Source: Nitrospirota bacterium (lineage in GTDB: Bacteria > Nitrospirota > Nitrospiria > Nitrospirales > Nitrospiraceae). Taken from it: a stretch of DNA of 64,000 bases. Of this stretch, positions 3,975-22,032 are shown piece by piece. The stretch's first letter is position 1; every line of letters starts with the position of its first letter. The notes beneath the pieces are model-generated. The model had not been told where the DNA came from. It was given only the letters and a program-made list of their open reading frames with translations, and ran no database searches. The stretch is from assembly GCA_026387665.1 (NCBI GenBank), contig JAPLLG010000013.1:186001-250000 (forward strand), written 5' to 3'. A program made the position numbers and the translations under genes.

Positions 3975-4080
3975 TGTGGGGTAGTAGAAGAATAACATGA
4001 GGGCCGCGCCCTGCGAGGGTGTAGTCGTTCGACAACCACAATAAAATTGTAACGCTTAAACCCAACGGCGTTTATATCAA

Positions 4081-4851: not shown

Positions 4852-5725
4852 ACAAAGCTGGTGATACCCCCAGCAATCTCTGTTTAGCAATATTGATATA
4901 GTCTGCTTTCACTTCAATGCCTACGCATCGGCGACCTGTTTCGATTGCGACGATACCGACCGTTCCACTTCCAAGAAACGGATCAAGTACCAACCCACCC
5001 TTGGGGGATCCTGCAAGGATGCAAGGACGAACGAGGGCGCGTGGAAACACGGCAAAGTGAGCTTCCTTGCACGGTTCTGTATTGATTTGCCAGACCGTAC
5101 GCTTGTTCTTACGTCCTTTTCCATCCGCCGTGGGCTCTTTAATGGCCTCTTGATCAAAGTAGTAGTTCTCGCTTTTTGAGAACATAAACAGATATTCATG
5201 CGAAACCGTTACTCGATCCTTGACGGACTCAGGCTGACAATTCGGCTTATGCCAGATAATGTCAGAGCGAAGATACCAGCCGTCACGTTGAAGAGACATC
5301 GCTAGCATCCAGGCTACACCGATTAAATCCTTGGGCTTTAATCCTTCGGGCGTGTCAGGGCGATACGACATCGCCCGTCCAGGATTCTTGGTATCCTTAT
5401 CGCGCCAGCCGCGGCCACCAGAGGTGTAAGTGTTAGCGATATTCAGCCAAAACGTGCCATCGGATCTCAGTACACGACGCACTTCTCTAAAACAGGCGAC
5501 TAAGTTCGAAATGTATTCTTCAATCGTCTCTTCCGCGCCGATTTGGCCACGATAACCATAATCTCGCATTCCCCAATACGGCGGTGATGTCACGCAGCAA
5601 TGAACTGTTTCATCGGGTAGGGATGACAGTTTATCGCGGACGTCCCCACTAACTATTTGGACAGGCTCATTCTCAGAGCACCGAAGAGGCCACACCGAGG
5701 AGCCATTAACATAAGGAGCGCTCAT
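4835..5725 (-). CDS. Site-specific DNA methyltransferase (beta-class, N4-cytosine or N6-adenine)
   Basis: 296 residues. It transfers a methyl group from S-adenosylmethionine to an exocyclic amino group in DNA, protecting the host against the convergent nuclease. Catalytic motif IV TSPPYW is at 46-51 and the SAM-binding motif I DPFLGSGT is at 248-255. Motif IV before motif I is the beta-class order typical of small type II enzymes. TSPPY is most common in N4-cytosine enzymes but does not exclude N6-adenine. The start codon overlaps the stop of the upstream ribbon-helix-helix gene by four bases (ATGA), indicating translational coupling. Confidence 0.93.
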   Translation of the reverse strand: MSAPYVNGSSVWPLRCSENEPVQIVSGDVRDKLSSLPDETVHCCVTSPPYWGMRDYGYRGQIGAEETIEEYISNLVACFREVRRVLRSDGTFWLNIANTYTSGGRGWRDKDTKNPGRAMSYRPDTPEGLKPKDLIGVAWMLAMSLQRDGWYLRSDIIWHKPNCQPESVKDRVTVSHEYLFMFSKSENYYFDQEAIKEPTADGKGRKNKRTVWQINTEPCKEAHFAVFPRALVRPCILAGSPKGGLVLDPFLGSGTVGIVAIETGRRCVGIEVKADYINIAKQRLLGVSPALFTGRP

Positions 5726-5931
5726 TTTTTTCTCTCACCAGAGTTCGCAGCTTGGCGGCTAGCGATGTAATGCGCTGGCTCTTCTTGCACCTTAGCGGTC
5801 AGTGTTTCAATGATGTAAGAGTGAAGCGTCTGATCGGATTCGATCGCTTTATACTTTAAAGCCTTATGCAGATTATCCTCCATCTCAAGAGGAAATGTCT
5901 TGTGGCGTTTTCGCACAGTCTTTAGTTTCAT
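5722..5931 (-). CDS. Ribbon-helix-helix (Arc/CopG-like) protein coupled to the methyltransferase
   Basis: 69 residues. A basic N-terminal strand (KTVRKRHKTFPLEM) is followed by two predicted helices, matching the Arc/MetJ ribbon-helix-helix fold that binds DNA as a dimer. It shares the ATGA junction with the methyltransferase, so it is probably the control protein of this restriction-modification locus. Most type II systems with a dedicated regulator use an HTH 'C' protein, so an RHH protein here is unusual. Immediately upstream lies an inverted repeat, ACTTACC-N11-GGTAAGT (5942-5966), a possible operator. The fold call is by pattern; an antitoxin-like role is an alternative. Confidence 0.65.
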   Translation of the reverse strand: MKLKTVRKRHKTFPLEMEDNLHKALKYKAIESDQTLHSYIIETLTAKVQEEPAHYIASRQAANSGERKK

Positions 5932-5941
5932 AGGTCAGGAA

Positions 5942-5966
5942 ACTTACCCTACTAACCTAGGTAAGT
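5942..5966. promoter_or_regulatory. Operator-like inverted repeat upstream of the RHH-methyltransferase pair
   Basis: ACTTACC at 5942-5948 is repeated in inverse at 5960-5966 (GGTAAGT). Between them, ACCTAGGT at 5955-5962 is itself an 8-base palindrome. The element begins 11 bases upstream of the RHH start codon, where an autoregulating RHH protein would be expected to bind. Confidence 0.45.
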
Positions 5967-6040
5967 CAATGAATGTAATCGGAGCAATTTTGAATACAAT
6001 ACGTTGTTACCGTCGTCTCGTGATGGCAACAACATGTCCG

Positions 6041-6073
6041 GGGGATTTAAAAGGGTCAGACCCCTTTGTTTTT
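6041..6073. repeat. Direct repeat DR1 flanking rhuM (left)
   Basis: GGGGATTTAAAAGGGTCAGA followed by CCCCTTTGTTTTT. It contains a near palindrome AAGGGTCAGACCCCTT. A copy with 30 of 32 matching bases lies in the same orientation at 7693-7724, on the other side of the rhuM gene. Confidence 0.75.
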
Positions 6074-6096
6074 ACGGGCCCTGGCATCACGTCGAC

Positions 6097-6246
6097 ATGC
6101 CAAAGCCCACAGCTAAAAAGAAGAAAGGCAAGAAGAATCCCGCAGGCATAAACCTGCTTACTCCGTAGTCGAAGCGGCTAATAGGGGAGGCGCTCACGCC
6201 TAAGAAGCCACGAAAGAAAAAGTCTACCAACAAGCCCAGATGCTAG
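6097..6246 (+). pseudogene. Lysine-rich small reading frame interrupted by an amber codon
   Basis: An ATG at 6097 opens a 50-codon frame ending TAG at 6246, with one internal TAG at 6166-6168. Both halves are lysine-rich (MPKPTAKKKKGKKNPAG, then LTPKKPRKKKSTNKPR), so the same compositional bias runs through the stop. This suggests a decayed small basic protein gene rather than chance, but the frame is short and no homolog is recognised. Confidence 0.3.
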
Positions 6247-6280
6247 GATCATAGCCGGTATCATCTAAGCTTATAAGCGT

Positions 6281-7621
6281 CTAGCTATCCGCGCTTTCCG
6301 ATTTGGGCAACGTCTTTTTCACCTTGATTTCATCGACAACATTGTCGAAGTCTGACTTATACTCTATGTCTTGGATTACACGGAACTTTTCATATTCATG
6401 GATCGCGTGACGCTCTGCATGTTCTCTTTTAACTTTTCCATGGCTATCGAGGACTTTGTAGTCGTTGAACTCCAGGAAGTCATCTAGCTTTTCTGCCCAG
6501 TCTTTCATCGTTAGGGCTTTGTTCCGCCTAGCGAAACTTTCCGCAAAATCAAGGTACATGCTTACAAGTCTGTCAAGGTCTTCTATTTCTTCTTTGGTTA
6601 GGTAATTCTTCCCAACAAGAACATCGGATTTAGTTACCTTCCCCTTTTTGCCTTCGTTTTTCCAATGCATTACGCCCATGTGAGGCTTTGTCGCATCGGC
6701 CCTGGTTGCAATCAGTTCAGCGGATGTATGGCCGTGAATCGCATAATGCAGTTTGTCTTGCACCTGCGCGTAGAACTGTTGCGTGATAGGGGAGTCCTTG
6801 TCGTAGTCAATACTGCACTGCGCATAAATGTCGGTAATCTTTTGATAGAAGCGCCTTTCTGATGCGCGTATTTCCCGAATGCGCTCAAGCAGTTCATCAA
6901 AGTAATCCTTGGCAAACAGCTTTGCGCCTTGCTTTAGACGATCATCGTTAAGGGCATAGCCTTTGATTAAGTAGCCTTTAATAACTTCTGTCGCCCACTT
7001 CCTGAATTGTGTGGCTCGATAGGAATTGACCCGATAGCCTATTGAAATTATCGCGTCCAGGTTATAGAAAGCCGTTGCGTACTTTTTCCCATCAGAGGCA
7101 GTTGTCAAGATTTCTTTGACAACTGCTGCTTGCCTTAGCTCTAAGTCATTGAAAATATTTGAAAGGTGATAACTAATATTTTGCTTTGTAGTATCAAATA
7201 TTTCAGCTAGACCCTGTTGCGTTGCCCACACAGTTTCCCCTTCAACTAAAACCCATACTTTTACGCTTCCGTCTGCTGACGAATAGAACAAGAATGGTGA
7301 GGTGGCCGGGCCATCATCAAAAGACTCCCGTGCAATTGGAACCGGAGCGTTGGTTCGCGTCTGGGGTTCGGCGAGAATAACAACACTGTTTATATGCTCC
7401 TTTTCTTCCTTATCAATCTCTGACGTTTGACGAAATATCAAATCGTTCGGGCTTAGTGAAATGCCACGCGACTTCGCCGCATCGAGAATGGGGCCGTGCC
7501 ACTTTGCCGGTATTACCCCTGTCTTTGCCCAGTGAGCAACGGTGCTTTGACCCTTTCCTATTATCTCAGCCAGAGCCGTCTGGCTACCAAATTTATCGAT
7601 AACCTTTTGCGCCGTATTCAT
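6281..7621 (-). CDS. RhuM-family protein with an N-terminal helix-turn-helix
   Basis: 446 residues, cytoplasmic. The central part has the RhuM signature: VWVLVEGETVWATQQGLAEI, TTKQNISYHLSNIF, then AFYNLDAIISIGYRVNS and TQFRKWATEVIKGY. RhuM proteins are widespread accessory proteins, named from a Salmonella pathogenicity island, whose biochemical role is unsettled; they often sit beside restriction or toxin genes. Residues 1-60 form an additional HTH of the kind seen in Cro/YdaS-like regulators (ALAEIIGKGQSTVAHWAKTG), not part of the usual RhuM protein. The ATG follows an AAAGGAGGG ribosome-binding site. An 18-base palindrome lies just upstream, consistent with autoregulation through the fused HTH. 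Family assignment is firm; function is not known. Confidence 0.87.
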   Translation of the reverse strand: MNTAQKVIDKFGSQTALAEIIGKGQSTVAHWAKTGVIPAKWHGPILDAAKSRGISLSPNDLIFRQTSEIDKEEKEHINSVVILAEPQTRTNAPVPIARESFDDGPATSPFLFYSSADGSVKVWVLVEGETVWATQQGLAEIFDTTKQNISYHLSNIFNDLELRQAAVVKEILTTASDGKKYATAFYNLDAIISIGYRVNSYRATQFRKWATEVIKGYLIKGYALNDDRLKQGAKLFAKDYFDELLERIREIRASERRFYQKITDIYAQCSIDYDKDSPITQQFYAQVQDKLHYAIHGHTSAELIATRADATKPHMGVMHWKNEGKKGKVTKSDVLVGKNYLTKEEIEDLDRLVSMYLDFAESFARRNKALTMKDWAEKLDDFLEFNDYKVLDSHGKVKREHAERHAIHEYEKFRVIQDIEYKSDFDNVVDEIKVKKTLPKSESADS

Positions 7622-7637
7622 GGATGCCCTCCTTTTA

Positions 7638-7655
7638 TTTGATTATTTTATCAAA
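7638..7655. promoter_or_regulatory. Palindrome upstream of rhuM
   Basis: TTTGATTATTTTATCAAA, an 18-base inverted repeat with six perfect outer pairs, begins 17 bases upstream of the rhuM start codon. It is a candidate operator for the fused HTH. Confidence 0.4.
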
Positions 7656-7692
7656 ATAACTGTTGTTGGTCAACGGTAAAATTGATATATTA

Positions 7693-7724
7693 GGGGATTT
7701 AAAGAGGTCAGACCCCTTTGTTTT
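7693..7724. repeat. Direct repeat DR2 flanking rhuM (right)
   Basis: GGGGATTTAAAGAGGTCAGA followed by CCCCTTTGTTTT, nearly identical to 6041-6073 and in the same orientation. The pair brackets rhuM and its palindrome. Confidence 0.75.
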
Positions 7725-7741
7725 CTTTCGGGTACTCCAGA

Positions 7742-7862
7742 GGCTGCTCAAAATTTCCGCCAGCGAGGCCGCAGGAAGCGGGACGACCGAGGCGTACCCT
7801 TGCAGTACGTCGCAGGTTGGTACGCGCGCGAGAAGGAAGCGATGTTGGAACTTTCAGCAGCC
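7742..7862. repeat. Inverted-repeat element, copy E (inverted orientation)
   Basis: GGCTGCTCAAAATTTCCGCC at the left and CTTTCAGCAGCC at the right correspond to the two ends of the ~126 bp family read from the other strand, with the shared internal GAGGCGTACCCTTGCAGTAC core. It sits inside the accessory island. Confidence 0.75.
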
Positions 7863-8047
7863 GACAAGAGTTCACTCAGGATGCCGCCAGTAAATTAGGA
7901 AACTTTCTTTGCGGTAAGTTAATCGAAGCCCGCCTCTTACTAATGAATCTCTTTCAGTGGCTCTTAGTAGCCGTATAATTAATTGATATACAAAGGACTT
8001 ATCAGTGAACTACTACTTTGTACTATTTTTACGAGAATTAGTACTTG

Positions 8048-8076
8048 TTGACATTAATCACATACTAATTTATAAA
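8048..8076 (+). promoter_or_regulatory. Strong sigma70-type promoter for the Fic gene
   Basis: A perfect TTGACA (8048-8053), a 17-base spacer and TATAAA (8071-8076). The expected start point near 8083 leaves a leader of about 23 bases before the ATG at 8106. TAGTAC at 8039-8044 and 8081-8086 flanks the promoter and pairs with GTACTA at 8020-8025, so repression by a palindrome-binding factor is conceivable. Confidence 0.65.
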
Positions 8077-8105
8077 TCTTTAGTACATTTTAGTATTTGG
8101 TAAAT

Positions 8106-9446
8106 ATGGCACTTGTCCTAACTCCCCCAAATTTCGCTGAGACTGTTAAAAGCCCAGAGCGGTTGCGAACCCTCTTTGAGTTGGGAGCTAAGCCAGAGTT
8201 TCAACAAACGATCCAGAGAGCAAACGAGCGCTACATACACTGGCATCGCTTCAGATATGTCCCGATCCCAAATGGATTAACCCATGAGGAAGTATGGACA
8301 CTATTAAAACTTGGGAGACGAGCGAATTTCAAACAGGCTCCGTTCACAGATAAGCAAGGAGTGCCGTTTTGGTACTGGATACCGGATGCTCTTCAAAGGT
8401 ATCTCCACGACATCGATGTCTGGGCTGGTGGCAACATTGTGTCAGAGCATCCAGGTCCATTGCCGGGGAAAGAGCAGTACATCATTAGATCGCTAATGGA
8501 TGAAGCGATCGCCTCCAGTCAGTTAGAGGGTGCTGCAACCACAACCAAGAAAGCCAAGGAGCTACTACAAACAGGACGAAAACCAAAAGACAGAAGCGAG
8601 CAGATGATTCTGAACAACTGGGAAACCATGCAGTTCATCAGAGAGAATAGAAAGGTCAGTCTCTCGAAAGAGCTCGTGATCGAAATTCATCAACGAATTA
8701 CCGCAGACACGTTGGACCATCCAGAAGATTCAGGTCGTATCAGGACTAGCAATGAAATAGTGGTCGAATACAAAGGAGAAACCGTCCACATACCCCCTGA
8801 CTTCAAGATTCTGCCAGAACGATTACAGGCATTTTGCAGATTTGCCAATGAAGATAGCCAAAGCAAATGGGTGCATCCTGTCATAAAAGCTGTAATGCTC
8901 CATTTCTGGTTAGCCTATGACCACCCGTTCACTGACGGAAATGGAAGAACGGCAAGGGCATTGATGTATTGGTATCTCCTATCTCGGGACTACATGCTTT
9001 TTGAATACTTAGCCATATCACGATACATACAACGATCGCCCGGACAGTACGTTCATGCGTATGTTCATACAGAAACCGACGAAAATGATCTAACGTACTT
9101 TCTCCTCTATAACCTAAGGGCAACAAAGCTAGCGTGCGAAGAGATACTGAGTTATATCGGAAGAAAGCAGAAAGAGCTGGCTGGATTGAGCTATGCCTTG
9201 AAGAAATACCCAGGCTTAAATCTGCGTCAGAGAAGTCTTCTATCTCATGCCATTCAACATCCTCAAGAGATTTACACATTCGAAACCCACCGAACTGCTC
9301 ACGGGATTGTCTATCAGACATCTCGCAACGACTTGCTCGAATTAGCAGAAAAAGGTTTTCTCAAGAAAGAAAAGTTGGGAAAAGAATTTATCTTTATTCA
9401 GGCTGACAAAATGATGGATAGACTGAGAAGTGCTGCAAGCACATAG
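8106..9446 (+). CDS. Fic-domain protein (AMP-transferase family)
   Basis: 446 residues, cytoplasmic. Fic enzymes transfer AMP or another phosphate-containing group from a nucleotide to hydroxyl side chains of target proteins. The active-site motif HPFTDGNGRTAR is complete at 273-284. The inhibitory helix motif SSQLEG at 138-143 (Glu142 as the blocking residue) lies N-terminal to the Fic core, which is the class II architecture with in-cis inhibition. The C-terminal ~100 residues look like a winged-helix domain (SRNDLLELAEKGFLKKEKLG). I use the ATG at 8106; a TTG three codons earlier is possible, and neither has a clear ribosome-binding site. The gene is AT-rich like the rest of the island. 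Confidence 0.92.
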   Translation: MALVLTPPNFAETVKSPERLRTLFELGAKPEFQQTIQRANERYIHWHRFRYVPIPNGLTHEEVWTLLKLGRRANFKQAPFTDKQGVPFWYWIPDALQRYLHDIDVWAGGNIVSEHPGPLPGKEQYIIRSLMDEAIASSQLEGAATTTKKAKELLQTGRKPKDRSEQMILNNWETMQFIRENRKVSLSKELVIEIHQRITADTLDHPEDSGRIRTSNEIVVEYKGETVHIPPDFKILPERLQAFCRFANEDSQSKWVHPVIKAVMLHFWLAYDHPFTDGNGRTARALMYWYLLSRDYMLFEYLAISRYIQRSPGQYVHAYVHTETDENDLTYFLLYNLRATKLACEEILSYIGRKQKELAGLSYALKKYPGLNLRQRSLLSHAIQHPQEIYTFETHRTAHGIVYQTSRNDLLELAEKGFLKKEKLGKEFIFIQADKMMDRLRSAAST

Positions 9447-9518
9447 CTCCGATTAAAGAGTGTATGGCGAGTCTGTTGAAAATTGTCTATAGCAAGGACA
9501 AAAAGGCGGTAGAGCGTG

Positions 9519-9639
9519 CGGTTGCTCAAACAGGTGGTCAACGAGGCCGCAGGCGAGAAAACACCGGAGGCGTACCCTCTGGGGTACGTTGAGGATTTTT
9601 CGAGCTGAGAACGAAGTTGGGCGCCTGTTTCAGCAACCG
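9519..9639. repeat. Inverted-repeat element, copy F
   Basis: Left end CGGTTGCTCAAACAGG, right end CCTGTTTCAGCAACCG, with the family core GGAGGCGTACCCTCTGGGGTACG. Its right end directly abuts the TAA stop of the esterase gene encoded on the minus strand. It lies at the right edge of the accessory island. Confidence 0.8.
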
Positions 9640-9640
9640 A

Positions 9641-10594
9641 TTACGGGAGGCCGAGCGAGCGCATGAAGTTTTCGACCGTCGCGGTGTAGTCGCTGGGAAG
9701 ACCCAGCTCTTTGTTGAGTTCCCCGTGCTTCATATCTACCGGCAGCACGGTGACCTTCCCACCTAGTTCGATGGCCTTGGACGCAAAGGTTCGTGCTTGC
9801 GGGCAGGTACCGTCGCTGCGCAACGAGCAGACCACGAACATCGGTGCCGGCGCGGCTGTCAGCCGGTGGTATGGGGACGCGGCAGTCCACAATGCGCGGT
9901 CCTTGCCGAACACACGATCATAAAAACCTTTGTGTTTCCGTTGCATGATCTCGACGAGGTCGTAGGCGGCGCTGTCGAGCACGATGGTGCCGAGCCAGGG
10001 TGTGCCGCCTTTGCTGGTCACGATGCGCGGGTCGGCAGCCAGCAGGGAAACCAGATGGGCTCCGGCGGAATGTCCCAGTAACAATACTCTGGCTGGGTCG
10101 CCTCCCCAGGATGGGGCCTTGGTCTGCACGAAGGCCAGCGCGCGGGCGATGTCGTCGGCCTGGTCAAGCGGGTTGGGCTGTCGAGACATGCGGTAGTTCG
10201 ACGACACGAGGATGTAGCCCTTGGGCAGCCAATGCGCGACCTTGTTCGAGACGAAGGCCGAGGCCCCCTTGTCGCCGATTATCCAGGCACCCCCGTGCAC
10301 CATGAAGATGATCGGAGCCGCCTTGGCTTGGGCGGGCATGTAGACATCCAGACGTTGCTGAGGGTCGTTGCCGTACGATAGGTCCCGTTCGAGTCGCGCG
10401 CCAGGCGGGAGGCGTACGCCGGTCGTTGACTGATCGCTGGGATCCATCTCTGCGGCATCGTCAGATGGTGCAGCTGCGCGGCGGCTTTCGAGCCGCTCCT
10501 CGAGCCTGTCACGGAGTGGGCCGCCGAATGCCGAGGTGAACTGCTCCAGCAATTCCACCAGAAACAACGCCAAAAATAGAAAATGTTTCATCAT
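9641..10594 (-). CDS. Exported alpha/beta-hydrolase (carboxylesterase-like)
   Basis: About 317 residues. It hydrolyses ester bonds of an unidentified substrate. The oxyanion-hole motif HGGAW, the nucleophile elbow GHSAGAH and a C-terminal Asp/His pair (MKHGELNKELG) fit the hormone-sensitive-lipase/BD-FAE type esterases. A hydrophobic N-terminus (MMKHFLFLALFLVELLEQF) suggests export or membrane anchoring. A GTG at 10609 is in frame, but the ATG at 10594 has GGGA six bases upstream and is preferred. The stop codon abuts a repeat element. No neighbour indicates the substrate. Confidence 0.85.
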   Translation of the reverse strand: MMKHFLFLALFLVELLEQFTSAFGGPLRDRLEERLESRRAAAPSDDAAEMDPSDQSTTGVRLPPGARLERDLSYGNDPQQRLDVYMPAQAKAAPIIFMVHGGAWIIGDKGASAFVSNKVAHWLPKGYILVSSNYRMSRQPNPLDQADDIARALAFVQTKAPSWGGDPARVLLLGHSAGAHLVSLLAADPRIVTSKGGTPWLGTIVLDSAAYDLVEIMQRKHKGFYDRVFGKDRALWTAASPYHRLTAAPAPMFVVCSLRSDGTCPQARTFASKAIELGGKVTVLPVDMKHGELNKELGLPSDYTATVENFMRSLGLP

Positions 10595-12166: not shown

Positions 12167-12505
12167 CTACTTTGTGGGGGTCTTCCCGAAGTACTCCTGC
12201 CGGCTGACCGCCACGTCTGTGACGAACATGACCCCGGAATGCCGATCGAACAGCGGCCGTAGTCCTGCCAGGATGGGCTCCACCTTTTCTTCCGGGACGA
12301 CCGTCATGATCATCTCGAGGCTTTCTTGCTCGCTGAACATGAAGTGGGCTTCACGCACGCCATGATGCCCTTTGCCTGACACATTGCCGATGATCGTATA
12401 GCCGGTCGCGTTGACCCGGTCCAGCAGGTCCGTCACAAACGGCCGGTGTTCTCCCGCCACGATCACCCGGATCTCTTTCATCGGATGCAATATCAACCCG
12501 CCCAC
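12167..12505 (-). CDS. PII-like protein of the DabA/DabB carbon-uptake locus
   Basis: 112 residues with a ferredoxin-like PII fold pattern (KEIRVIVAGEHRPFVTDLLD, GYTIIGNVSGKGHHGVREAH, LEMIMTVVPEEKVEPILAGL, GVMFVTDVAV). PII-like proteins sense nucleotides, and in some inorganic-carbon systems bicarbonate, and regulate the linked transporter. There is no glnB-type uridylylated T-loop Tyr motif and no C-terminal CGPxGC loop of SbtB. The GTG at 12505 is preferred because AAGGAGC lies seven bases upstream; an ATG eight codons later is the alternative. It follows dabA by 47 bases on the same strand, indicating an operon and a regulatory role for the transporter. Confidence 0.85.
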   Translation of the reverse strand: MGGLILHPMKEIRVIVAGEHRPFVTDLLDRVNATGYTIIGNVSGKGHHGVREAHFMFSEQESLEMIMTVVPEEKVEPILAGLRPLFDRHSGVMFVTDVAVSRQEYFGKTPTK

Positions 12506-12552
12506 GGTTCAGCTCCTTCCTTGGTGAATAATTCTGTTCAGAATGCTCGCAT

Positions 12553-15500
12553 TCAAAAGCCGGCTCCTGAGTCGACTTTGGCCCACTCGCCGGTCGGGCG
12601 ATACCGATAGAAGACTCCCTCCTCCGGCTCCAGCGCGACCAGGTGGACCCACTCGTTGTGATAGAACTGCTGCAGCACTTCATGACGCCCGATCAGCTTC
12701 ACGATCCGCTCGCGCGGCGCTTCGATCACGGACAGGAGCCGCATCGGCTCATGGTACGGCACCTCGCCGTTCATGACGGTCTGCAGGGCGAGCCCGAGCC
12801 GGAGGTCGCTCCAGGGGCCGGACATGATGCCGAAACGTCCTACGACATTATGGTAGATCTTACTCCCGCTGCCATAGACCTCATTATCCACCGTGGAAAA
12901 ATAATGTTCCATGTTGATCCACTGAGCCACGACTTGCGGCCCGGTCATCAGCACTTCGAGCAAGCGGCTGCTGGGATCTTCGCGGTAGTCGTACGATTGC
13001 AGAAAGGCGCGTCCGCCTAGATCGATTCCTTTGGTCAAGTCCCGCCGGCCGATCACGATGGACGCGTTGCTCGACAGGCCCCATTCCGGGCGCACCTGGC
13101 TCCAATCCACGCTGCGGCGGCGCACATGCGCGATCGATTCAGGGGCCGGCAGCGGTTCGGCGAGATCGGGAAAGCGGGTGCAACGTTCAAGACTCGTGAG
13201 GCGGGAGGCTTCGCGAAGGTCTTGGGTCAGCCGCGCGATATCCGCGCGGTGCGTCGGCGGCGCATCCTCCAAATCGAAGAGTTGGACGGCATCGGTCGTG
13301 GTATCGACTTGCCCGGCCAGGAAGTGCGTGTCGGACGGAATCACGAGGCCGTTTTTCGCCAGGCGCTCCCGTACTTTTTGATTGTTGGCCATCATGGCGA
13401 GCACGCGCGCGTTGGGTTTGCCTTCGTTGCCTCCGCAGGCGCCGCAGTCCAGGGCGGATTCGAACGGATTATTCTCAGAGGTGCTGCCGTGCGCGCAGAA
13501 CAGGACGAGGCGCGCAAACTGATGCGTGAGGCCCATCATCCGCAAGGCCGTGTCCACTGTCAGGACCTGCTCGTCGAGCGTAAAGCCGGTGCGCGTGATC
13601 CGCTCCTTCTGCCGGGAGGCCGAGCGCTGATTGATGCCGTAGCGCTGGCGCAACGTCGTGACGAAGATTGTGAGCGCTTTCGTCGAGAGTCCGGCCTGGG
13701 TTGCGGCTGAGACGAGCGCCGCGTCCGGCTCGACGTCACCGCTCAAGGCCCATTGCCGCAAGGCCTCGATCAGCGCCGGCGTGATTTGAGAACTGCGCAG
13801 GCCGGTACGTTCTTGGAGCGCCTGCCTGATGGTGGCCTGTTGTTCGGCCATCAACATTTCGGCGGTATCGGTCGGCGCCAGTTTATCGATGGTGAGGGTC
13901 GTGGCGATGGATGGCACGAAGAGGCGCTGCAGCCAATCGGTCCAGCGCCGGTAGAGAGAGGGCAGAAACGTTTTCCCGATGATCGGGAGGCCATAGAACC
14001 AGCCCACCGATTCCACCATCACGTAGGGCGTGACGACATTTTCTTTCAGGTCGTGCAGGAGTGTATGGCCGGCATGGACCATTCTGGTCCGGGCCTCATG
14101 TTTCGAGACGACATGATCGAGATAGCTGCGGGGGATTTCGCGCACCTCGTTCTTTGCGCGCATGATGACGGGGAACTGTTCCGTGTCATGCTCCTTGCCC
14201 CAGGCGCGATAGCGGATGAAGGCGGCGAAGAAGCCGGCGAACCCGTAGGTGTCGTTCGCGCCGCTGGATTCGAGATGCCGCCGGAACGGTTCGGAGCGGA
14301 CATCGATGCAGAACACCGATTGCGAATGGGGCCGTTCGAGTCCCGATTCGACGCCGGATGGGGGCTGCGCGACCGGTGATCGGGCGAGCGCTCCGAGGAG
14401 TCGTTCCTGATAGCCGGCTTCGAAGGCCTTGAGCCAGACCGGTCCATGGTCCGATTCGGGGAAGGTTTTCATCCACTCGACGAGGCGGACGAGTTCGTCC
14501 GGCGCCGTGGTCATCAGCGTGGTCGGATCGAGCTGCAGCGCCAGCGCGAGGGACCGCAACTGCTTGGCGGCGCCATGGCGGGCGACGCGGAGCTGGCGGG
14601 GCGCGACATCCGACCGGTAGCGCTCGTACAATTCGTCCCAGTCTTGCGTGCGCTGATGCCGCAGCCGGTCGACTTCCTCCGCATAGATTGCGGGAAGCCG
14701 GCCGGCGACCCGTTCCCGACGCAGGAAATATTCCTTGGAACGCTGCCGCATATAGTCGGTCACAGACTGATACGTTCCCTCGATGCCGAGTTCCTCCCGG
14801 CAGGTTTGCTGAACCAGCTCACGCACATACCAGAGACGGATCGCGAGATACTTGACCACTCCGACCGGATAGGCCCGCTGCCATTCGTAGTCGCGCTCTT
14901 CCGAACGCCATTTAATGAAACCGGCCCATCCCGGCAGCGCCGTAAGTTGCAGGGAGAGATAATCCTGCCGCAGGTCTGCGGGAATGCCGAGCGCGTCCAG
15001 ACTTTCCAGCAACGTATCTTCGGGATAGTCGGGCAGGCTGGCAATCTTCCGTTTGCTGTCGGAAATGCCGCAGGGCGACCATTCATGGGCCGCGAGGGCT
15101 TTCCAGGCCAGGTACAAGCCCTGTTCCCGTCCCGGCATGGCCCAGGTGGCATGGCCTTCGTCCAGGAACGCCCCACACCACTTGATCAGTTCACGGTTGA
15201 TCCGGTCGACAATGGTGGTGCCCAGCGCCTGATCGCACCAATGTGAGAGCGTCATCCATCGGCCGAGCGATGTCTGGTTGCAGTGGACCAGGCCCCGTAC
15301 GCGTTCGTCCACATTCGGATTGGGCAAGACCGTTTCCAAGCGGTCGGCGATCGAGACGTCCAGTTGGTGGTAGGGATCGTGCTCCCATCGCGCATCCAAC
15401 GGTTCCTCGACCGGTGTGCAGAGGCCTTCGGCAAGACAGGCGCGGAGCACTTCGCCGTGGGACACGCGATGCAAGCCGATCGTCGCGTATTCGTCGCGCG

Positions 15501-15783
15501 CCAGCGGAGCCACAGCCGTTTCCATATGGCGGGATTGAATTCGGCCGGAACGGAGATAGTGGCGATAGAGCTCGCTGGGGAGATAGCCATTTCCTCCGAG
15601 GAATTGTTTTCCTCGTGTAACGGTTTCTTCGAACGGAAGATATTCGAGGCTATGGAGCGGATTGTGATGCACGAAGGTCCGCATCGGCCAATATTGGGCG
15701 ACGACCTCGCTCGCGAGGCGGATCACGCCCCGGAGCTCCATGCGTCTGGTTTCCATGTTGACGGATGGGTCTAGCGATTCCAT
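12553..15783 (-). CDS. dabA: DabA-type inorganic carbon transporter subunit (DUF2309)
   Basis: 1,076 residues, peripheral cytoplasmic subunit. With a DabB membrane subunit it is known to accumulate bicarbonate/CO2 in autotrophs, acting as a vectorial, energy-coupled carbonic anhydrase. Beta-CA-like metal ligands are visible: Cys492 and Asp494 in VFCIDVRSEPF, His765 in CAHGSTSENN, and Cys780 in DCGACGG. The N-terminal YWPMRTFVHHNPLH (31-44) is also characteristic. It overlaps the end of dabB2 by 13 bases and is followed by the PII-like gene, so dabB1-dabB2-dabA-PII form one unit. A second in-frame ATG at 15756 is possible. Length is in the normal range for the long DabA forms. Confidence 0.95.
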   Translation of the reverse strand: MESLDPSVNMETRRMELRGVIRLASEVVAQYWPMRTFVHHNPLHSLEYLPFEETVTRGKQFLGGNGYLPSELYRHYLRSGRIQSRHMETAVAPLARDEYATIGLHRVSHGEVLRACLAEGLCTPVEEPLDARWEHDPYHQLDVSIADRLETVLPNPNVDERVRGLVHCNQTSLGRWMTLSHWCDQALGTTIVDRINRELIKWCGAFLDEGHATWAMPGREQGLYLAWKALAAHEWSPCGISDSKRKIASLPDYPEDTLLESLDALGIPADLRQDYLSLQLTALPGWAGFIKWRSEERDYEWQRAYPVGVVKYLAIRLWYVRELVQQTCREELGIEGTYQSVTDYMRQRSKEYFLRRERVAGRLPAIYAEEVDRLRHQRTQDWDELYERYRSDVAPRQLRVARHGAAKQLRSLALALQLDPTTLMTTAPDELVRLVEWMKTFPESDHGPVWLKAFEAGYQERLLGALARSPVAQPPSGVESGLERPHSQSVFCIDVRSEPFRRHLESSGANDTYGFAGFFAAFIRYRAWGKEHDTEQFPVIMRAKNEVREIPRSYLDHVVSKHEARTRMVHAGHTLLHDLKENVVTPYVMVESVGWFYGLPIIGKTFLPSLYRRWTDWLQRLFVPSIATTLTIDKLAPTDTAEMLMAEQQATIRQALQERTGLRSSQITPALIEALRQWALSGDVEPDAALVSAATQAGLSTKALTIFVTTLRQRYGINQRSASRQKERITRTGFTLDEQVLTVDTALRMMGLTHQFARLVLFCAHGSTSENNPFESALDCGACGGNEGKPNARVLAMMANNQKVRERLAKNGLVIPSDTHFLAGQVDTTTDAVQLFDLEDAPPTHRADIARLTQDLREASRLTSLERCTRFPDLAEPLPAPESIAHVRRRSVDWSQVRPEWGLSSNASIVIGRRDLTKGIDLGGRAFLQSYDYREDPSSRLLEVLMTGPQVVAQWINMEHYFSTVDNEVYGSGSKIYHNVVGRFGIMSGPWSDLRLGLALQTVMNGEVPYHEPMRLLSVIEAPRERIVKLIGRHEVLQQFYHNEWVHLVALEPEEGVFYRYRPTGEWAKVDSGAGF

Positions 15784-17069
15784 GAGACTGGCTCCATGAT
15801 GGCCCCGGTGCCGGTCGATCGCGGCGCCCCCTCGAACAGGTTGGTTGGCGCGAGACCCAAGGCGAACATGATCATCACCACGATCAGGAGGGAGGTGAAT
15901 TCGGACTGACGTACATCCTCATAACGGAGATCCGGGCGTTTGCGGCCGAAGAGCAGCCCTTGCACCAGATCGAGGATGTACCAGGATGCCGCGAGCCAGG
16001 TGATGGCGACGACGAAGGGGGCCATCGAGAGGGTCAGCGGCGATGCGAAGAGTAACCCCATGAAGCCGGCGAAGACCCCAAAGGGAGGCAGCCCCATCGC
16101 GGCCAAGGCCAGGAGGGAAATCAACACGGCAAACTGCGGCATCTGCGCAGCCAGCCCACTGATGGCTCGCGGATCCACATCGTCGCCGTAGCGTGTCCGG
16201 ATCACCTGCCAGGCGAGGAGGAGTCCAGCAGTCACGAGGGCCAGGCTGCCCAGGAAGACCGCGGCCTGTGGACTGACAGTCCGCGAGGTGGCCACGAACC
16301 ACCAGAGGAGGGAGAAGAACGACAGGCTGCCATAGGCGAGGAGTAGCCGCACGCGCGACTGCGCCAGCGCCTTGATCGCTCCATAGAGGGCGCCCGACAA
16401 AGCCAAGACGATCACCGGCAAGGTTTCAAATTCCGATACGGCAGGGATCAGCGCGGCGAGCTTGTGCAGCCCGATTGCGGGAAGCAACAGTACGGTGAAC
16501 GAGGGGAGGCTGCCGGGTAATCGCGTGAGTGCCGCCACATAGCCATGGTGGAAGGGGACCAGGGGCAGCAGGATCATGCAGGCCAGCAGCGAGGGGATGG
16601 CCGAGCCTGTCATGGCCGCGATCCCCGCGCATAACGTTCCCAGCCCGTAGGTCCCGATGCCCAACCAGGAGGGGCCCCAGAAGGGATCGTGATGCCAATA
16701 GAGGAGGAACGTGATGAGGCCTAGGAGCAGCGTGAGCGCGATCGAGCCGATAGGGGGCGGGAGCGTGAGAATGCCCAAACCCATTCCCAAAAACACCAGG
16801 GTCACGACCCATGCCAGGCGATGGTCCCGGTGAACCGGCTGTCCCAGGAGCGAGACAGAGGCGGCCAGCGGAAGGAGCAGGACGAAGAGGAGCCCCTCGG
16901 TGGACCCCGTCAGCCTGAAGAAGCTCACGATGACGGCGAGCAGACTCACCAGGGTCACGGTGACGGACCAGGCCTTCAATTTCTCCGGCTGAGACCAGAC
17001 CGCGACGCCCAACAGCGCGCCTAGCAGGGGAACCGCGGCTAGGAGCCAGGGAGTAAGCATCTGCTCCAT
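15771..17069 (-). CDS. NuoL/M-like membrane subunit of the Dab complex (second, shorter)
   Basis: 432 residues and about 12-13 predicted membrane helices belonging to the proton-antiporter (NuoL/M/N, MrpA/D) superfamily. It begins MEQMLTPWLLAAVPLLGALL and ends just inside dabA. The usual Dab system has one NuoL-like subunit, DabB, which supplies ion-driven energy. Here two different ones are encoded in tandem, this one being shorter and more divergent. The ATG at 17069 overlaps the dabB1 TGA by one base, indicating coupled translation; a GTG at 17081 and an ATG at 17060 are alternatives. Membership in the complex is inferred from the operon. Confidence 0.85.
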   Translation of the reverse strand: MEQMLTPWLLAAVPLLGALLGVAVWSQPEKLKAWSVTVTLVSLLAVIVSFFRLTGSTEGLLFVLLLPLAASVSLLGQPVHRDHRLAWVVTLVFLGMGLGILTLPPPIGSIALTLLLGLITFLLYWHHDPFWGPSWLGIGTYGLGTLCAGIAAMTGSAIPSLLACMILLPLVPFHHGYVAALTRLPGSLPSFTVLLLPAIGLHKLAALIPAVSEFETLPVIVLALSGALYGAIKALAQSRVRLLLAYGSLSFFSLLWWFVATSRTVSPQAAVFLGSLALVTAGLLLAWQVIRTRYGDDVDPRAISGLAAQMPQFAVLISLLALAAMGLPPFGVFAGFMGLLFASPLTLSMAPFVVAITWLAASWYILDLVQGLLFGRKRPDLRYEDVRQSEFTSLLIVVMIMFALGLAPTNLFEGAPRSTGTGAIMEPVSWNR

Positions 17070-18769
17070 CACTCCGACCACCTCGCATTGCGCTTGTCGA
17101 TGCGGTGGACGAGGCGCATGACGGCTTTCCCCAGCGTCTGGTAGAGCTCATCCATATACAGCCGGTTCATGATGATGACATACAGGCGAATGCGTAGCCC
17201 TTCGACCCATCCCGGTATCCACATCGTCTGGCCATGGGCTCGCATGTATAGATAGCCCCAACTGAGCACGGTCAGAATCGTAGCTATGATGACCATGCTG
17301 TCGAAGAGCCAGTTCGGCAGGTCTGCGGCCTGGAAGTACGATGCGACCTCGTCCGGATTCGGATAGAGGAAGGCGGTGAAGGACTCGACGGCGAACAGAT
17401 AGACGAAGACGACGAAGAGCAGGGTCAGCAACATCGCGGAGGACACTTTCCAGGAGGCGATGGCGCGTAACCGTGTGAGCGTCAAGATGGCCTGGGACGA
17501 GGTGATCCAGATAAAGAAGAGAAAGATCACGGTCCCTTGAGACTCCAGCAGGGGGATGTGGAGCACCCCGTGCGTCACGAGGAGAATCAGGAGCGGAATC
17601 AACAGCGTGGTGATGAACCCCGTTGACCAGGTCAGGGAGGAAAACTCCTTGGCTTCCTCGCGAGGATCCGCATGAGGCGATTCCGGATCTTGGCGGGCCT
17701 TGTGGATGACATTCCCGCAATTTAAGAACACGGTCGCTTTGAAGAGGCCGTGCGCGATCAGGTGAAAGACGGCCAGCGAAAAGGCGCCCAGGCCGCATTC
17801 CATAATCATGTAGCCCATCTGTCCGATCGTCGAAAATCCCAGCGTCTTCTTGATGTCGTTCTGTGCCAGCATCATGGTGGCGCCCAGGACCGCGGTGAGC
17901 GTGCCTACCACGAGGGCCACATGCAGCGTGGTCGAGCTGAGACCATAGAGTGGCGCCAGGCGGTTGATCAGGAAGCCGCCCGCATTGATGATGCCGGCGT
18001 GGAGCAACGCATGAACCGGCGTAGGCGCATAAAGCGACCGGGGCAGCCAGAAATGCAGCGGAAACTGCGCGGACTTGCTCATGCCGCCGATGAACAATAA
18101 GAGCGTGACGGCTGTCGGTCCGCTGATCTCGACGCCAGGCCAGGGCGACAGCATGCCCGGCTGGTCGGCGGCCCTGGCGAAGAGGGCTTGAAATTCGAGC
18201 GTCCCATATAACTGGTAGGCGAGCACGGTGCCTGAGAGAAACGCGACATCGCCGATCCGTAACAGGGTAAAGGTCCTGAACGCGCCGTCGAGCGTTGCCG
18301 CATGGGCATGGTTGTGGGCCAGGAGATAGAGCATGTAGCTCAGGACCTGCCAGAAGAGAAACAGCATCATTAAATTGGCGCTGGACACCATGCACAGCAA
18401 CACCGCGGTCGTGAAGCCGATGAGCGCCAGATATCGCCGATCGTGAGGGTCCTGGTACATGTAGCTGATCGAGTAGGTGTAGATGATCGTTCCGACGCCG
18501 GAGATCAGCACCATCATGACGGCGCTCAAGCGGTCGACATAGAACCCGATGGGGAATGCCAGGGTGGCCGGGGACGCGGGATCGTAGAACCGGAGGGTGA
18601 TGGGCCCTTGTGTGGCCACCCACCAGAGCGTCGCGATGGCGCCGAGAAAGGCCCCGCCGATGGGATAGGCCGCCATCTTGGCCCGTTCCTGTCGCGAGGG
18701 TTCGTCACCCGCTAGGACGAGGAGCGCTGCGAGCAGCGGGAGCAGCGGCACGAGAATTACGAAGGACAT
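17069..18769 (-). CDS. dabB: DabB-type NuoL-like proton-antiporter subunit
   Basis: 566 residues with about 14 membrane helices. Hallmarks of the NuoL/MrpA family are present: the Lys in GGMSKSAQFPLHFWLPRSLY, then APTPVHALLHAGIINAGGFL and AQNDIKKTLGFSTIGQMGYM. In Dab transporters this subunit couples cation flow across the inner membrane to CO2 hydration by DabA. The ATG at 18769 has AAGGG seven bases upstream and starts MSFVILVPLLPLLAALLV; the longer open frame upstream is discarded. It is the first full gene of the minus-strand operon. A 33-codon ORF and a hairpin with a U-run precede it. Confidence 0.92.
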   Translation of the reverse strand: MSFVILVPLLPLLAALLVLAGDEPSRQERAKMAAYPIGGAFLGAIATLWWVATQGPITLRFYDPASPATLAFPIGFYVDRLSAVMMVLISGVGTIIYTYSISYMYQDPHDRRYLALIGFTTAVLLCMVSSANLMMLFLFWQVLSYMLYLLAHNHAHAATLDGAFRTFTLLRIGDVAFLSGTVLAYQLYGTLEFQALFARAADQPGMLSPWPGVEISGPTAVTLLLFIGGMSKSAQFPLHFWLPRSLYAPTPVHALLHAGIINAGGFLINRLAPLYGLSSTTLHVALVVGTLTAVLGATMMLAQNDIKKTLGFSTIGQMGYMIMECGLGAFSLAVFHLIAHGLFKATVFLNCGNVIHKARQDPESPHADPREEAKEFSSLTWSTGFITTLLIPLLILLVTHGVLHIPLLESQGTVIFLFFIWITSSQAILTLTRLRAIASWKVSSAMLLTLLFVVFVYLFAVESFTAFLYPNPDEVASYFQAADLPNWLFDSMVIIATILTVLSWGYLYMRAHGQTMWIPGWVEGLRIRLYVIIMNRLYMDELYQTLGKAVMRLVHRIDKRNARWSE

Positions 18770-18858
18770 GTCGTACCCTTCACTCTGCGAAACACGAACG
18801 GCGTCCTGCGCAGGGCCTCGGTGATGACGGAGTTCGTGATGTCTTCTGGAGTGCTCAT
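18757..18858 (-). CDS. Putative 33-residue leader ORF overlapping the dabB start
   Basis: ATG at 18858, TAA at 18757-18759, reading MSTPEDITNSVITEALRRTP and then a basic tail. It overlaps the first 13 bases of dabB in another frame, so its termination occurs just beyond the dabB initiation region, a geometry suited to translational coupling. No strong ribosome-binding site is seen. It could be a regulatory upstream ORF, a tiny subunit, or chance. Confidence 0.35.
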   Translation of the reverse strand: MSTPEDITNSVITEALRRTPFVFRRVKGTTCPS

Positions 18859-18881
18859 CGATATCGCCCGGTATACGGAAT

Positions 18882-18928
18882 AAAAAAAGCCAGCGGGCGC
18901 GACTCGTCAGAGTGCACCACACTGGCTT
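18882..18928 (-). terminator. Hairpin with U-run in the dab leader (terminator or attenuator)
   Basis: On the minus strand AAGCCAG (18928-18922) pairs with CTGGCTT (18893-18887), and the stem runs into seven consecutive T (18888-18882). A second small hairpin ACTCTGACGAGT can form inside the loop. No minus-strand gene lies upstream to be terminated, and dabB begins 113 bases downstream. A conditional attenuator of the dab operon is therefore possible. Confidence 0.5.
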
Positions 18929-19226
18929 GTATTGTTATCGGCCAACCGAAATGGGAAGCCGACGACCGTACGTGCCCCATAGTGGAGTTGGGTTTACACC
19001 TATGTGAGTTCCCCGCTACGGTTCCGCTAGATCTCTCTAGGAAATCAAGCCTGCGGCACCGTCTTCCATTCCAAGATGTAGCAGGATTCCGGAGACAAAC
19101 GCAAAGAATCTTTCGGTCCAGCGGCACAGGAACATCGGGGCCATCCCCATGGGTCCTTTGTCCCATTTGCTTGGGAAAACAGCTGAAAGTGACGGCAGGG
19201 ATTCTGCCGAGAATTGGCTCCTGTCA

Positions 19227-19256
19227 TTGCCTTGTTTGTCCTAAGGTCTCTATAAT
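19227..19256 (+). promoter_or_regulatory. Sigma70-type promoter for the DUF2294 gene
   Basis: TTGCCT at 19227-19232, an 18-base spacer and a perfect TATAAT at 19251-19256, about 70 bases upstream of the ATG at 19326. Confidence 0.5.
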
Positions 19257-19325
19257 CCGCCTCGCACGAGGAGGCCGTAGCGCAATGGTATGGCCCTTGT
19301 GAAATGGGCCATTGAGCGGGGGGAT

Positions 19326-19685
19326 ATGCACAACGCGATCAGACAGGCCGTCATCAAATTCGAGCAGGACTTCATGGGGCGCGGACCGACGGATGTGAAA
19401 GCCTTCATCATCCGGGATATGGTGGTCGTTCGACTCAAAGGCGTCCTGACTCAAGCCGAACGTCAGTTGGTGAAGAACGCGGATGGCGTGGAGATGGTCA
19501 AGCGTATGCGCCAGAATTTGATGGCGCAAGGCAAGGACAATCTGTGCGGCGAGATCGCCGGCATTACCGGCGTGAAGGTCACCGGTTTATTCACAGACAT
19601 CGACACGCAGGTCGGTGAGCGGGTCATGGTGTTTACGCTCGATCACGACCTTGAAACGAGTGAATCTTCCGCCAGTAGTTCGTGA
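19326..19685 (+). CDS. DUF2294-family protein
   Basis: 119 residues, soluble. The sequence RGPTDVKAFIIRDMVVVRLK, LTQAERQLVK and GVKVTGLFTDIDTQVGERVM matches the DUF2294 family of small proteins with no established function. The ATG at 19326 follows a GCGGGGGGAT purine run, whereas the upstream in-frame ATG at 19290 has no such site. It is transcribed away from the dab operon and toward the beta-carbonic anhydrase 161 bases further on. That placement suggests, but does not show, a part in inorganic-carbon handling. Confidence 0.85.
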   Translation: MHNAIRQAVIKFEQDFMGRGPTDVKAFIIRDMVVVRLKGVLTQAERQLVKNADGVEMVKRMRQNLMAQGKDNLCGEIAGITGVKVTGLFTDIDTQVGERVMVFTLDHDLETSESSASSS

Positions 19686-19846
19686 GTCGCTGTCAGTGCG
19701 CCGTCGCGAGGCTCTCAAAAGAACCGCTCCATGACGCGGAGCCCTGCTATCGGAAAGACATCGAACAGTTCCGGTCAGGCTCTCTGGTGGAATGGACTGT
19801 TTCGAAAGAGAAATCCGTGGGGTCGACCACATAAGGGAGAGAGGCG

Positions 19847-20473
19847 ATGGAAAAATTAGTTGAAGGGTTTAAAAAGTTTCAGGCGGAGATCTTTGGAGCC
19901 AAGCGCGAATTGTTCAGCCGCCTGTCCGAAGGCCAAACCCCTCGCGCGCTGTTCATTACCTGCTCGGACTCACGCATCGACCCCACCTTGCTGACACAGG
20001 CTGAGCCCGGCGAACTCTTCATTCTGCGGAATGCCGGCAATATCGTTCCCTCCTATGGGGAGACCATGGGAGGCAGCACGGCCACGATCGAATATGCTGT
20101 CGCCGTGCTGGGGGTGAAGCATATCGTCGTCTGTGGCCATACGGATTGCGGTGTCATGAGAGCGCTCCTTCACCCGGAATCGGTTGAGGATCTGCCCGCC
20201 GTGAAGAGCTGGATGATCCAGGCCGAAACGACGCGGCGCATCGTGCGGGAAAATTACGCCGACCTTAAAGGAGAGGACTTGCTGGTGACGACCATCCAGG
20301 AGAACGTGCGGATTCAACTGGACCACCTCAAGACCCATCCGGCGGTTGCCGTGCGGCTGAGACGCGGGACGCTGACCCTTCATGGCTGGGTCTACTCCAT
20401 CCGCACCGGCGATATCTGGGCCTATGACGAAAACAAGGACGCGTTCGTCTCCCTGGCTGAGCCTGCCCAATAA
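19847..20473 (+). CDS. Beta-carbonic anhydrase
   Basis: 208 residues, cytoplasmic by absence of a signal peptide. It interconverts CO2 and bicarbonate at a zinc site. The ligands are all visible: Cys39 and Asp41 in TCSDSR with Arg43, and His98 and Cys101 in CGHTDCG. The length is right for a bacterial beta-CA. AGAGAGGCG precedes the ATG. In combination with the adjacent DabA/DabB transporter it would set the form of carbon supplied to CO2- or bicarbonate-using carboxylases. Whether it is co-transcribed with the DUF2294 gene or has its own promoter is unclear. Confidence 0.95.
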   Translation: MEKLVEGFKKFQAEIFGAKRELFSRLSEGQTPRALFITCSDSRIDPTLLTQAEPGELFILRNAGNIVPSYGETMGGSTATIEYAVAVLGVKHIVVCGHTDCGVMRALLHPESVEDLPAVKSWMIQAETTRRIVRENYADLKGEDLLVTTIQENVRIQLDHLKTHPAVAVRLRRGTLTLHGWVYSIRTGDIWAYDENKDAFVSLAEPAQ

Positions 20474-20553: not shown

Positions 20554-22032
20554 ATGCGATCCTTGTGTAAGCTTGAAGAATTGTCGTTCGACAACACCTA
20601 TGCCCGCTTGCCCGAGGCCTTCTACTCCAAGTTGCAACCCACTCCGTTCTCGTCGCCTCCCTATCTCATCAGTTTCAATCCCGCAGCAGCTGAATTGATC
20701 GACCTCGATCCGGAACAAGCGAAGCGGCCTGAATTTGCCGGTGTGTTTGGCGGCAGCATGCTTGCGCCGGGGATGGAGCCGCTGGCCATGCTTTACTCAG
20801 GCCATCAGTTCGGGGTCTATGTGCCGCAGCTCGGCGACGGCCGCGCCATCCTCCTGGGAGAAGTGCGGAATGAGCGGGGCGAGAAATGGGACCTGCAACT
20901 CAAGGGAGCCGGTCTCACGCCCTTTTCGCGGGAGGGTGACGGCCGCGCGGTGTTGCGTTCGACCATTCGGGAATATCTCTGCAGCGAAGCGATGCACGGC
21001 TTGGGGATTCCGACGACGAGGGCGCTCTGCATCGTCGGGAGCGACCATCAAGTGTATCGTGAACAGGTCGAGACCGGCGCGATCGTGCTGCGCATGGCGC
21101 CCTCGCACGTGCGGTTCGGCTCGTTCGAAATTTTCTATTATCGAAAACAACATGAGCAGCTCAAAGTGCTGGCCGACTACGTGATCGCGCAGCATTATCT
21201 CCATCTGATCGATACCTCGGACAAGTACGCGCGATTTTTCTCTGAGGTGGTCGAACGCACGGCGAGGCTCATCGCGCAATGGCAGGCTGTCGGCTGGTCC
21301 CATGGAGTGATGAACACCGACAATATGTCGATCCTTGGCATCACGCTCGACTACGGTCCCTTCGGCTTCATGGACGATTACGATCCCGGCTTCATCTGCA
21401 ACCACTCGGACCACAGTGGCCGCTACGCCTTTAATCAACAGCCCTACATCGGGCTGTGGAATCTCAGTTGTCTGGCTCAGGCGCTGCTTCCTCTGGCAGA
21501 GAAGGACGATCTCAAATCATCCCTCGATCGCTACACGCCCATGTGCGAAGGTCGCTACATGGAACTGATGAGGGCCAAGTGCGGGCTGACCGAGACGAAG
21601 GAAGAGGACGCGTCGCTGATCCAGGATCTTCTGGTGCTCATGCACCAGCACCATGTGGATTACACCATTTTCTTTCGGACCTTGAGTGCCTTTCAGACTG
21701 GAGCTGTAGCGCAGAACGAGCCACTTCGCGACTTCTTTGTGGACCGTGGAGCCTTCGACCAGTGGGCCGTCCGGTATGAGGCCCGTCTGCGCGAAGAAGG
21801 GAGCCGGGACGAGGACCGTTCGGTCCGCATGAACCGCGTCAATCCCAAGTATGTGCTCCGCAACTATCTGGCGCAGACCGCCATCGAGAAGGCGCAGCAG
21901 AAGGACTTTTCGGAAATCGATCGGCTGCTCACCCTGCTGCGCGATCCCTACAGCGATCAGCCAGGCATGGAGGCCTATGCGGCTCCACCTCCCAACTGGG
22001 GCAAACATCTCTCGGTCAGTTGCTCGTCGTAG
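20554..22032 (+). CDS. selO: SelO/YdiU family protein adenylyltransferase
   Basis: 492 residues. SelO is a pseudokinase that transfers AMP from ATP to Ser, Thr and Tyr of target proteins, linked to redox homeostasis. Family sequence is well kept: SFDNTYARLPEAFYSKLQPT, YSGHQFGVYVPQLGDGRA, LQLKGAGLTPFSREGDGRAV, and SHGVMNTDNMSILGITLDYG with the metal-binding NxDN. The protein ends VSCSS, with Cys near the C-terminus where some homologs have selenocysteine. The start at 20554 follows AAGAAGG closely; later in-frame starts would remove conserved residues. Confidence 0.94.
   Translation: MRSLCKLEELSFDNTYARLPEAFYSKLQPTPFSSPPYLISFNPAAAELIDLDPEQAKRPEFAGVFGGSMLAPGMEPLAMLYSGHQFGVYVPQLGDGRAILLGEVRNERGEKWDLQLKGAGLTPFSREGDGRAVLRSTIREYLCSEAMHGLGIPTTRALCIVGSDHQVYREQVETGAIVLRMAPSHVRFGSFEIFYYRKQHEQLKVLADYVIAQHYLHLIDTSDKYARFFSEVVERTARLIAQWQAVGWSHGVMNTDNMSILGITLDYGPFGFMDDYDPGFICNHSDHSGRYAFNQQPYIGLWNLSCLAQALLPLAEKDDLKSSLDRYTPMCEGRYMELMRAKCGLTETKEEDASLIQDLLVLMHQHHVDYTIFFRTLSAFQTGAVAQNEPLRDFFVDRGAFDQWAVRYEARLREEGSRDEDRSVRMNRVNPKYVLRNYLAQTAIEKAQQKDFSEIDRLLTLLRDPYSDQPGMEAYAAPPPNWGKHLSVSCSS

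Follow-up and report, generated by a model that had tools for sequence, protein, structure and literature searches.

A DAB1-type inorganic carbon operon with a long, antiporter-related interstitial subunit in a Nitrospirota bacterium

A second NuoL/M-type gene, lying between dabB and dabA in a Nitrospirota genome, raises the question of whether the locus encodes a new kind of Dab system and of what the additional subunit does. The window is the whole stretch of DNA analysed (64,000 nucleotides), and all coordinates below refer to it.

Layout of the locus

Four genes on the minus strand overlap or nearly abut. These are dabB (17069–18769, start ATG 18769; a NuoL-like proton-path subunit of 566 aa; PF00361 2.9e-46, PF00662 1.1e-13), the interstitial gene, hereafter X (15771–17081; the third DAB1 subunit, 436 aa, with a degenerate NuoM-like antiporter domain), the long form of dabA (12553–15783; 1076 aa; PF10070 3.1e-264) and a PII-like gene (12167–12505, likely start ATG 12481; PF00543 1.1e-22). 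A single operon is very likely, because X overlaps dabB at one end and dabA at the other, in both cases by 13 bases, and the PII gene follows 47 bases beyond dabA. Divergently, on the plus strand, lie mpsC (19326–19685, start most likely ATG 19326; PF10057, formerly DUF2294, 1e-35) and a beta-carbonic anhydrase gene (beta-CA; 19847–20473; PF00484 1.1e-46; best PDB match 5swc, 6e-67), in which the motifs CSDSR and CGHTDCG are both intact. The beta-CA gene is present at 7/40 X-type loci of the same-phylum survey described below. The next gene in the same direction is selO (protein adenylyltransferase; 20554–22032), a recurrent neighbour of mpsC/CA in the family (about 20 loci).

Based on family profile matches, all genes named in the initial annotation are present and correctly placed, including the PII-like gene after dabA and the DUF2294 gene and complete beta-CA across the divergent gap. 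The 467-base control region proposed there was counted from an out-of-frame ATG at 18858; with the gene starts re-assigned, the divergent dabB–mpsC region covers 18770–19325 (556 bp). The ATG at 18858 opens a 33-codon ORF (18858–18760), which is found in no relative, and a conserved leader peptide ahead of dabB was rejected. DabA and MpsC are each single copy in the genome, and no match to PF00016 (Rubisco large subunit) was found in it.

Comparison with described Dab systems

The DabA of the locus was aligned to DabA2 of the cryo-EM structure 9rd0. Residues C492, D494, R496, H765 and C780 correspond to C351, D353, R355, H524 and C539, all of which are required in DAB2 (PMC13144422), so that the Cys492/Asp494 and His765/Cys780 pairs pointed out initially are indeed kept. 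The zinc site (C492/H765/C780) and the D494–R496 dyad are invariant in 169 aligned DabA sequences. The finger glutamate is E591, in a TPYVMVE motif, and is equated with E444 of DabA2 by its position between aligned blocks rather than by direct alignment; this position is Glu or Asp in 169/169 DabA. Concerning DabB, residues K232, H257, K307, S313, H336, H340 and K344 are invariant in the alignment and correspond to the DAB2 proton-path residues probed by mutation (PMC13144422); His253 stands at the position equivalent to S256. The locus therefore shares with DAB2 (DabA2–DabB2) the features of the DAC/DAB family: a PF10070 DabA with the Cys2His zinc site, Asp–Arg dyad and finger glutamate, and an adjoining PF00361 DabB with NuoL-type proton-path residues. 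DAB2 differs in having two subunits, a short DabA and no X.

The closest described system is DAB1 of Halothiobacillus neapolitanus, a DAC whose three subunits include an additional TM protein (PMC13144422). Its genes run dabB1 (Hneap_0909), interstitial gene (0908), dabA1 (0907) and then PII; the interstitial gene has been referred to as 'mrpA family, PFAM 00361', and dabAB1 with this gene complements CA-free E. coli (PMC7714395). The order NuoL, TM protein, DUF2309, PII was printed in 2015 (PMC4633670). Gene order, long DabA, a PF00361-related interstitial subunit and PII are all common to DAB1 and our locus, and an H. neapolitanus MAG (L141) has the same layout. The interstitial protein is about 250 aa in H. 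neapolitanus DAB1 vs 436 aa here. Also, DAB1 of H. neapolitanus lies in a carboxysome operon, whereas our locus has a divergent mpsC and beta-CA; the carboxysome/Rubisco context, which is usual for DAB1 and does not define it, is missing from this genome.

The same order is found outside the phylum. A Nitrobacter hamburgensis plasmid carries dabB, a gene for a 253-aa hypothetical protein, dabA and PII beside carboxysome genes; on this plasmid (L112:9482-22332) dabB-X-dabA-PII occurs twice, in near-identical tandem copies. A genome scan gave 80 named DabA loci, including Halothiobacillus, Thiobacillus, Nitrosomonas and Acidithiobacillus, nearly all in the order dabB-X-dabA-PII with a middle gene of about 250 aa. 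X was recognised by HMM at the middle position in 68/80 and a PII gene in 76/80, and most of the exceptions are explained by fusions, low HMM scores or the end of a contig. A novel three-subunit system was therefore rejected, as the Nitrobacter plasmid and the 80 named DAB1 loci share the order. The initial reading, in which a PII-like protein partners a Dab complex of three subunits, was right and matches the described DAB1 layout; its contrast with a single DabB in described DAB systems does not hold, DAB1 being already three-subunit (PMC13144422, PMC7714395, PMC4633670). Since the three-subunit DAB1, the PF00361 interstitial gene and the gene order are all published, the locus is a described DAB1 operon and its layout is not new.

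Staphylococcus MpsABC shares with the locus the linked DabB, DabA and MpsC, which are linked on an S. pettenkoferi plasmid too. It has no X, no PII and a short DabA, and its mpsC is downstream and co-directional, whereas that of the locus is divergent. Based on its description, the Leptospirillum 'och' chromate-tolerance operon (NuoL and an 823-aa DUF2309 protein; PMC9080137) is also a DabB–DabA pair.

The interstitial subunit

X matches PF00361 (1e-10) over its C-terminal part only, at residues ~157–347. Its best match among solved structures is NuoM (2.4e-8), with X 164–418 aligned to NuoM 227–488. The claim of two tandem, overlapping NuoL/M-type genes thus stands for the overlap (13 bases) and the family match, but covers only this part of X. 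The 253-aa middle protein of Nitrobacter aligns with X 164–410 (hhalign probability 96, E 4.7e-9); plain BLASTP between the two gave no match. An X-only HMM, made from window-side X proteins with NuoM excluded, matches 69/73 short X proteins at E<1e-3 (median 44.7 bits), and a NuoM-only HMM matches 1/73 (6.6 bits). When all ORFs of the short-X loci were searched, matches of the X-only HMM were limited to the middle gene or to DabB–X fusions, which are found in class-level relatives and Aquificota (three Aquificota loci). Judged by these profile matches, the 436-aa X of the window is the long form of the ~250-aa DAB1 interstitial subunit, which has been termed 'small hypothetical' or 'unnamed' in the literature.

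The proton path of NuoM is a different matter. The columns of NuoM K234, K265, H322, H348, E407 and E144 (numbering verified on E. coli NuoM) keep their residue in 10/10 true NuoM. Only 3/119 X proteins keep any of the six, namely His at H322; the others have mostly Leu/Phe, Pro, Phe/Ala, Val/Leu and Phe/Leu/Met at these columns, and the short and fused forms lack the first ~150–160 residues, TM5 included. X therefore shares the fold of NuoM of complex I without the Lys/Glu/His path residues of a proton-translocating NuoM or antiporter subunit, a loss that was missed when X was counted as a plain NuoL/M-type subunit. The predicted model of X, which aligns to a fragment of ND4 at 2.2 A over 204 columns, has an antiporter fold and is confident from ~160 to ~415, with low confidence in the N-terminal third. 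A natural DabB–X fusion was also folded (mean pLDDT 78), and its structure matches are NuoL.

Since all six proton-path residues are essentially gone in the 119 X proteins, X is probably structural or regulatory rather than a second pump; the lost columns, together with the antiporter-like predicted fold, point to a structural or gating role. A more specific possibility, which we put forward tentatively and consider rather unlikely, is that X gates or locks the proton path of DabB, giving DAB1 a built-in control unlike DAB2; CPII and MpsC would then regulate the same complex as well. One modest new point is that the third DAB1 subunit appears to be a channel-dead antiporter relative, long here and fused elsewhere, which we did not find in print. 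The long X would show the origin of the DAB1 interstitial protein and suggests that this protein is unable to act as an ordinary proton channel, so that its role can be tested in the E. coli assay already available.

The survey covered about 80 same-phylum regions with four main layouts: dabB-X-dabA-PII (40 loci, PII in 40/40), dabB-dabA without X (16 loci, PII in 11/16), DabB–X fusions (5 loci, PII in 5/5) and dabA without dabB. Relatives whose dabA has DabB as its only partner, which the initial annotation had suggested looking for, do occur (the 16 loci). Judged from gene content, X is not always required, because X-less DabB-DabA-PII operons are found in the same family. In a FastTree phylogeny of 96 DabA, the window groups with X-type and fused loci in a clade with a support of 1.0. 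Loci of the X-less dabB-dabA-PII type also branch within this long-DabA group, close to a further clade that carries X (0.73), a position suggesting that they arose by loss of X; the rooting of this tree is uncertain, as the outgroup was disturbed by two fragments.

Several further arrangements were seen. A second, apparently intact dabB precedes dabB at 14/40 X-type loci (among them L035, L037, L044, L061, L062 and L066), which gives three antiporter-like genes. L074 (7529-19167) has a DabA without its own DabB, followed by mrpE/F/G/B/C/D-like and NuoL- and NuoM-like genes; these downstream genes were read in L074, and a locus of this type is possibly a DabA–Mrp hybrid. DabA without its own DabB is also found in L077, L079, L081, L085, L087, L091, L101 and L102, with MpsC mostly divergent and adjacent. 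The finger glutamate is Asp in 8/12 DabA without dabB. L033, L049, L053 and L055 contain an extra DabA without adjoining DabB, in genomes with other dab loci; in the tree these DabA are a separate clade that neighbours the X-less type.

Regulators, rival readings and proposed mechanism

The only PDB matches of the PII protein at E<=0.01 are 5d4n/5d4l (1.6e-31), the CPII of Thiomonas intermedia, so that among solved structures it is a CPII homologue, nearer CPII than GlnB. The title of Wheatley 2016 (cited within PMC6458275) describes the Thiomonas CPII as regulated by bicarbonate. This locus differs from the Thiomonas comparison in having no adjoining carboxysome genes. We found no published demonstration of CPII regulation of a Dab complex.

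Concerning the DUF2294 gene, the PF10057 match covers the full domain (profile 2–110/111). It had been put forward as a candidate new component, but PF10057 is already named MpsC, the third gene of S. aureus mpsABC, which is dispensable there (PMC6689103). A match to PF10057 is present in Bacillus subtilis as well. The linkage of this family to carbon-uptake genes, on which its candidacy was made to depend, does recur: mpsC is upstream at 26/33 X-type loci with enough sequence and is always divergent. Of the dabA loci sorted as having no dabB beside them, 8 also have a divergent mpsC upstream (L106, one of the 8, is a misfiled X-type locus), and at 3 fused loci mpsC is upstream and co-directional. 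It is absent from 80/80 proteobacterial/Aquificota DAB1 loci. Many of the surveyed genomes behind these counts are related; a chance inherited neighbour is less likely, because several different arrangements occur within one phylum. By gene neighbourhood, the MpsC–Dab linkage is wider than the published statement that MpsC is Staphylococcus-only, and its breadth was not found in print. Its repeated divergent placement brings mpsC, earlier dismissed as unrelated to DIC uptake, back into consideration.

Three other readings of the locus were weighed. X could be a second working proton channel, moving more protons per CO2 as in complex I variants with duplicated NuoM. The PF00361 match and NuoM-like fold agree with this, as do the 14/40 X loci of relatives that also have a second intact DabB; with the six NuoM positions non-ionizable or absent in practically all 119 X, and the fused and short forms devoid of the first ~150–160 residues including TM5, we regard it as very unlikely. 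A role for X as a subunit that specifically serves the assembly or docking of the PII regulator would fit the PII gene at every X-type and fused locus (40/40 and 5/5) and the co-occurrence of X and PII in proteobacterial DAB1. However, the PII gene does not need X, because 11/16 X-less loci and a Mycolicibacterium plasmid with DabB-DabA-PII carry it without X, and such a docking role is highly improbable.

Instead, the whole operon could have nothing to do with carbon uptake and encode a Na+/H+ antiporter or a fragment of complex I; a cation antiporter function has been guessed for orphan nuoL/M-like genes of Nitrospira (PMC7784846), DabB is NuoL-like, and S. aureus MpsABC complements Na+/H+ antiporter-deficient E. 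coli (PMC6689103). This is hardly credible, given that the overlapping genes of the operon include a full DabA that retains its zinc site and is followed by CPII, that a beta-CA gene is found beyond the divergent region, and that further nuo or mrp genes are absent from the immediate surroundings.

We consider it highly probable, from homology and gene context, that the locus encodes a DAB1-type pump in which X is a long non-conducting interstitial subunit, CPII a throttle and MpsC an accessory. DabA, a buried beta-CA-like zinc enzyme, would hydrate CO2 to bicarbonate only while protons flow through DabB, a coupling that has been proposed for DAB2 and is transferred here by homology. The most likely place of X is next to DabB, where it would serve structure or gating and conduct no protons. 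The CPII-type protein would probably throttle the complex in response to bicarbonate and adenylates, with MpsC as a putative accessory protein of the complex, and the beta-CA would equilibrate CO2 and bicarbonate. Because the genome has no Rubisco, the bicarbonate would be used in a different carboxylation pathway, the probable one being the reductive TCA cycle. The survey also shows that DAB1-type pumps occur in a genome that lacks Rubisco.

Elsewhere in the window, positions 4001–10000 have a GC content of 0.46–0.48 vs ~0.60 around them and include a Fic-motif protein at 8097–9446; this looks like an acquired stretch.
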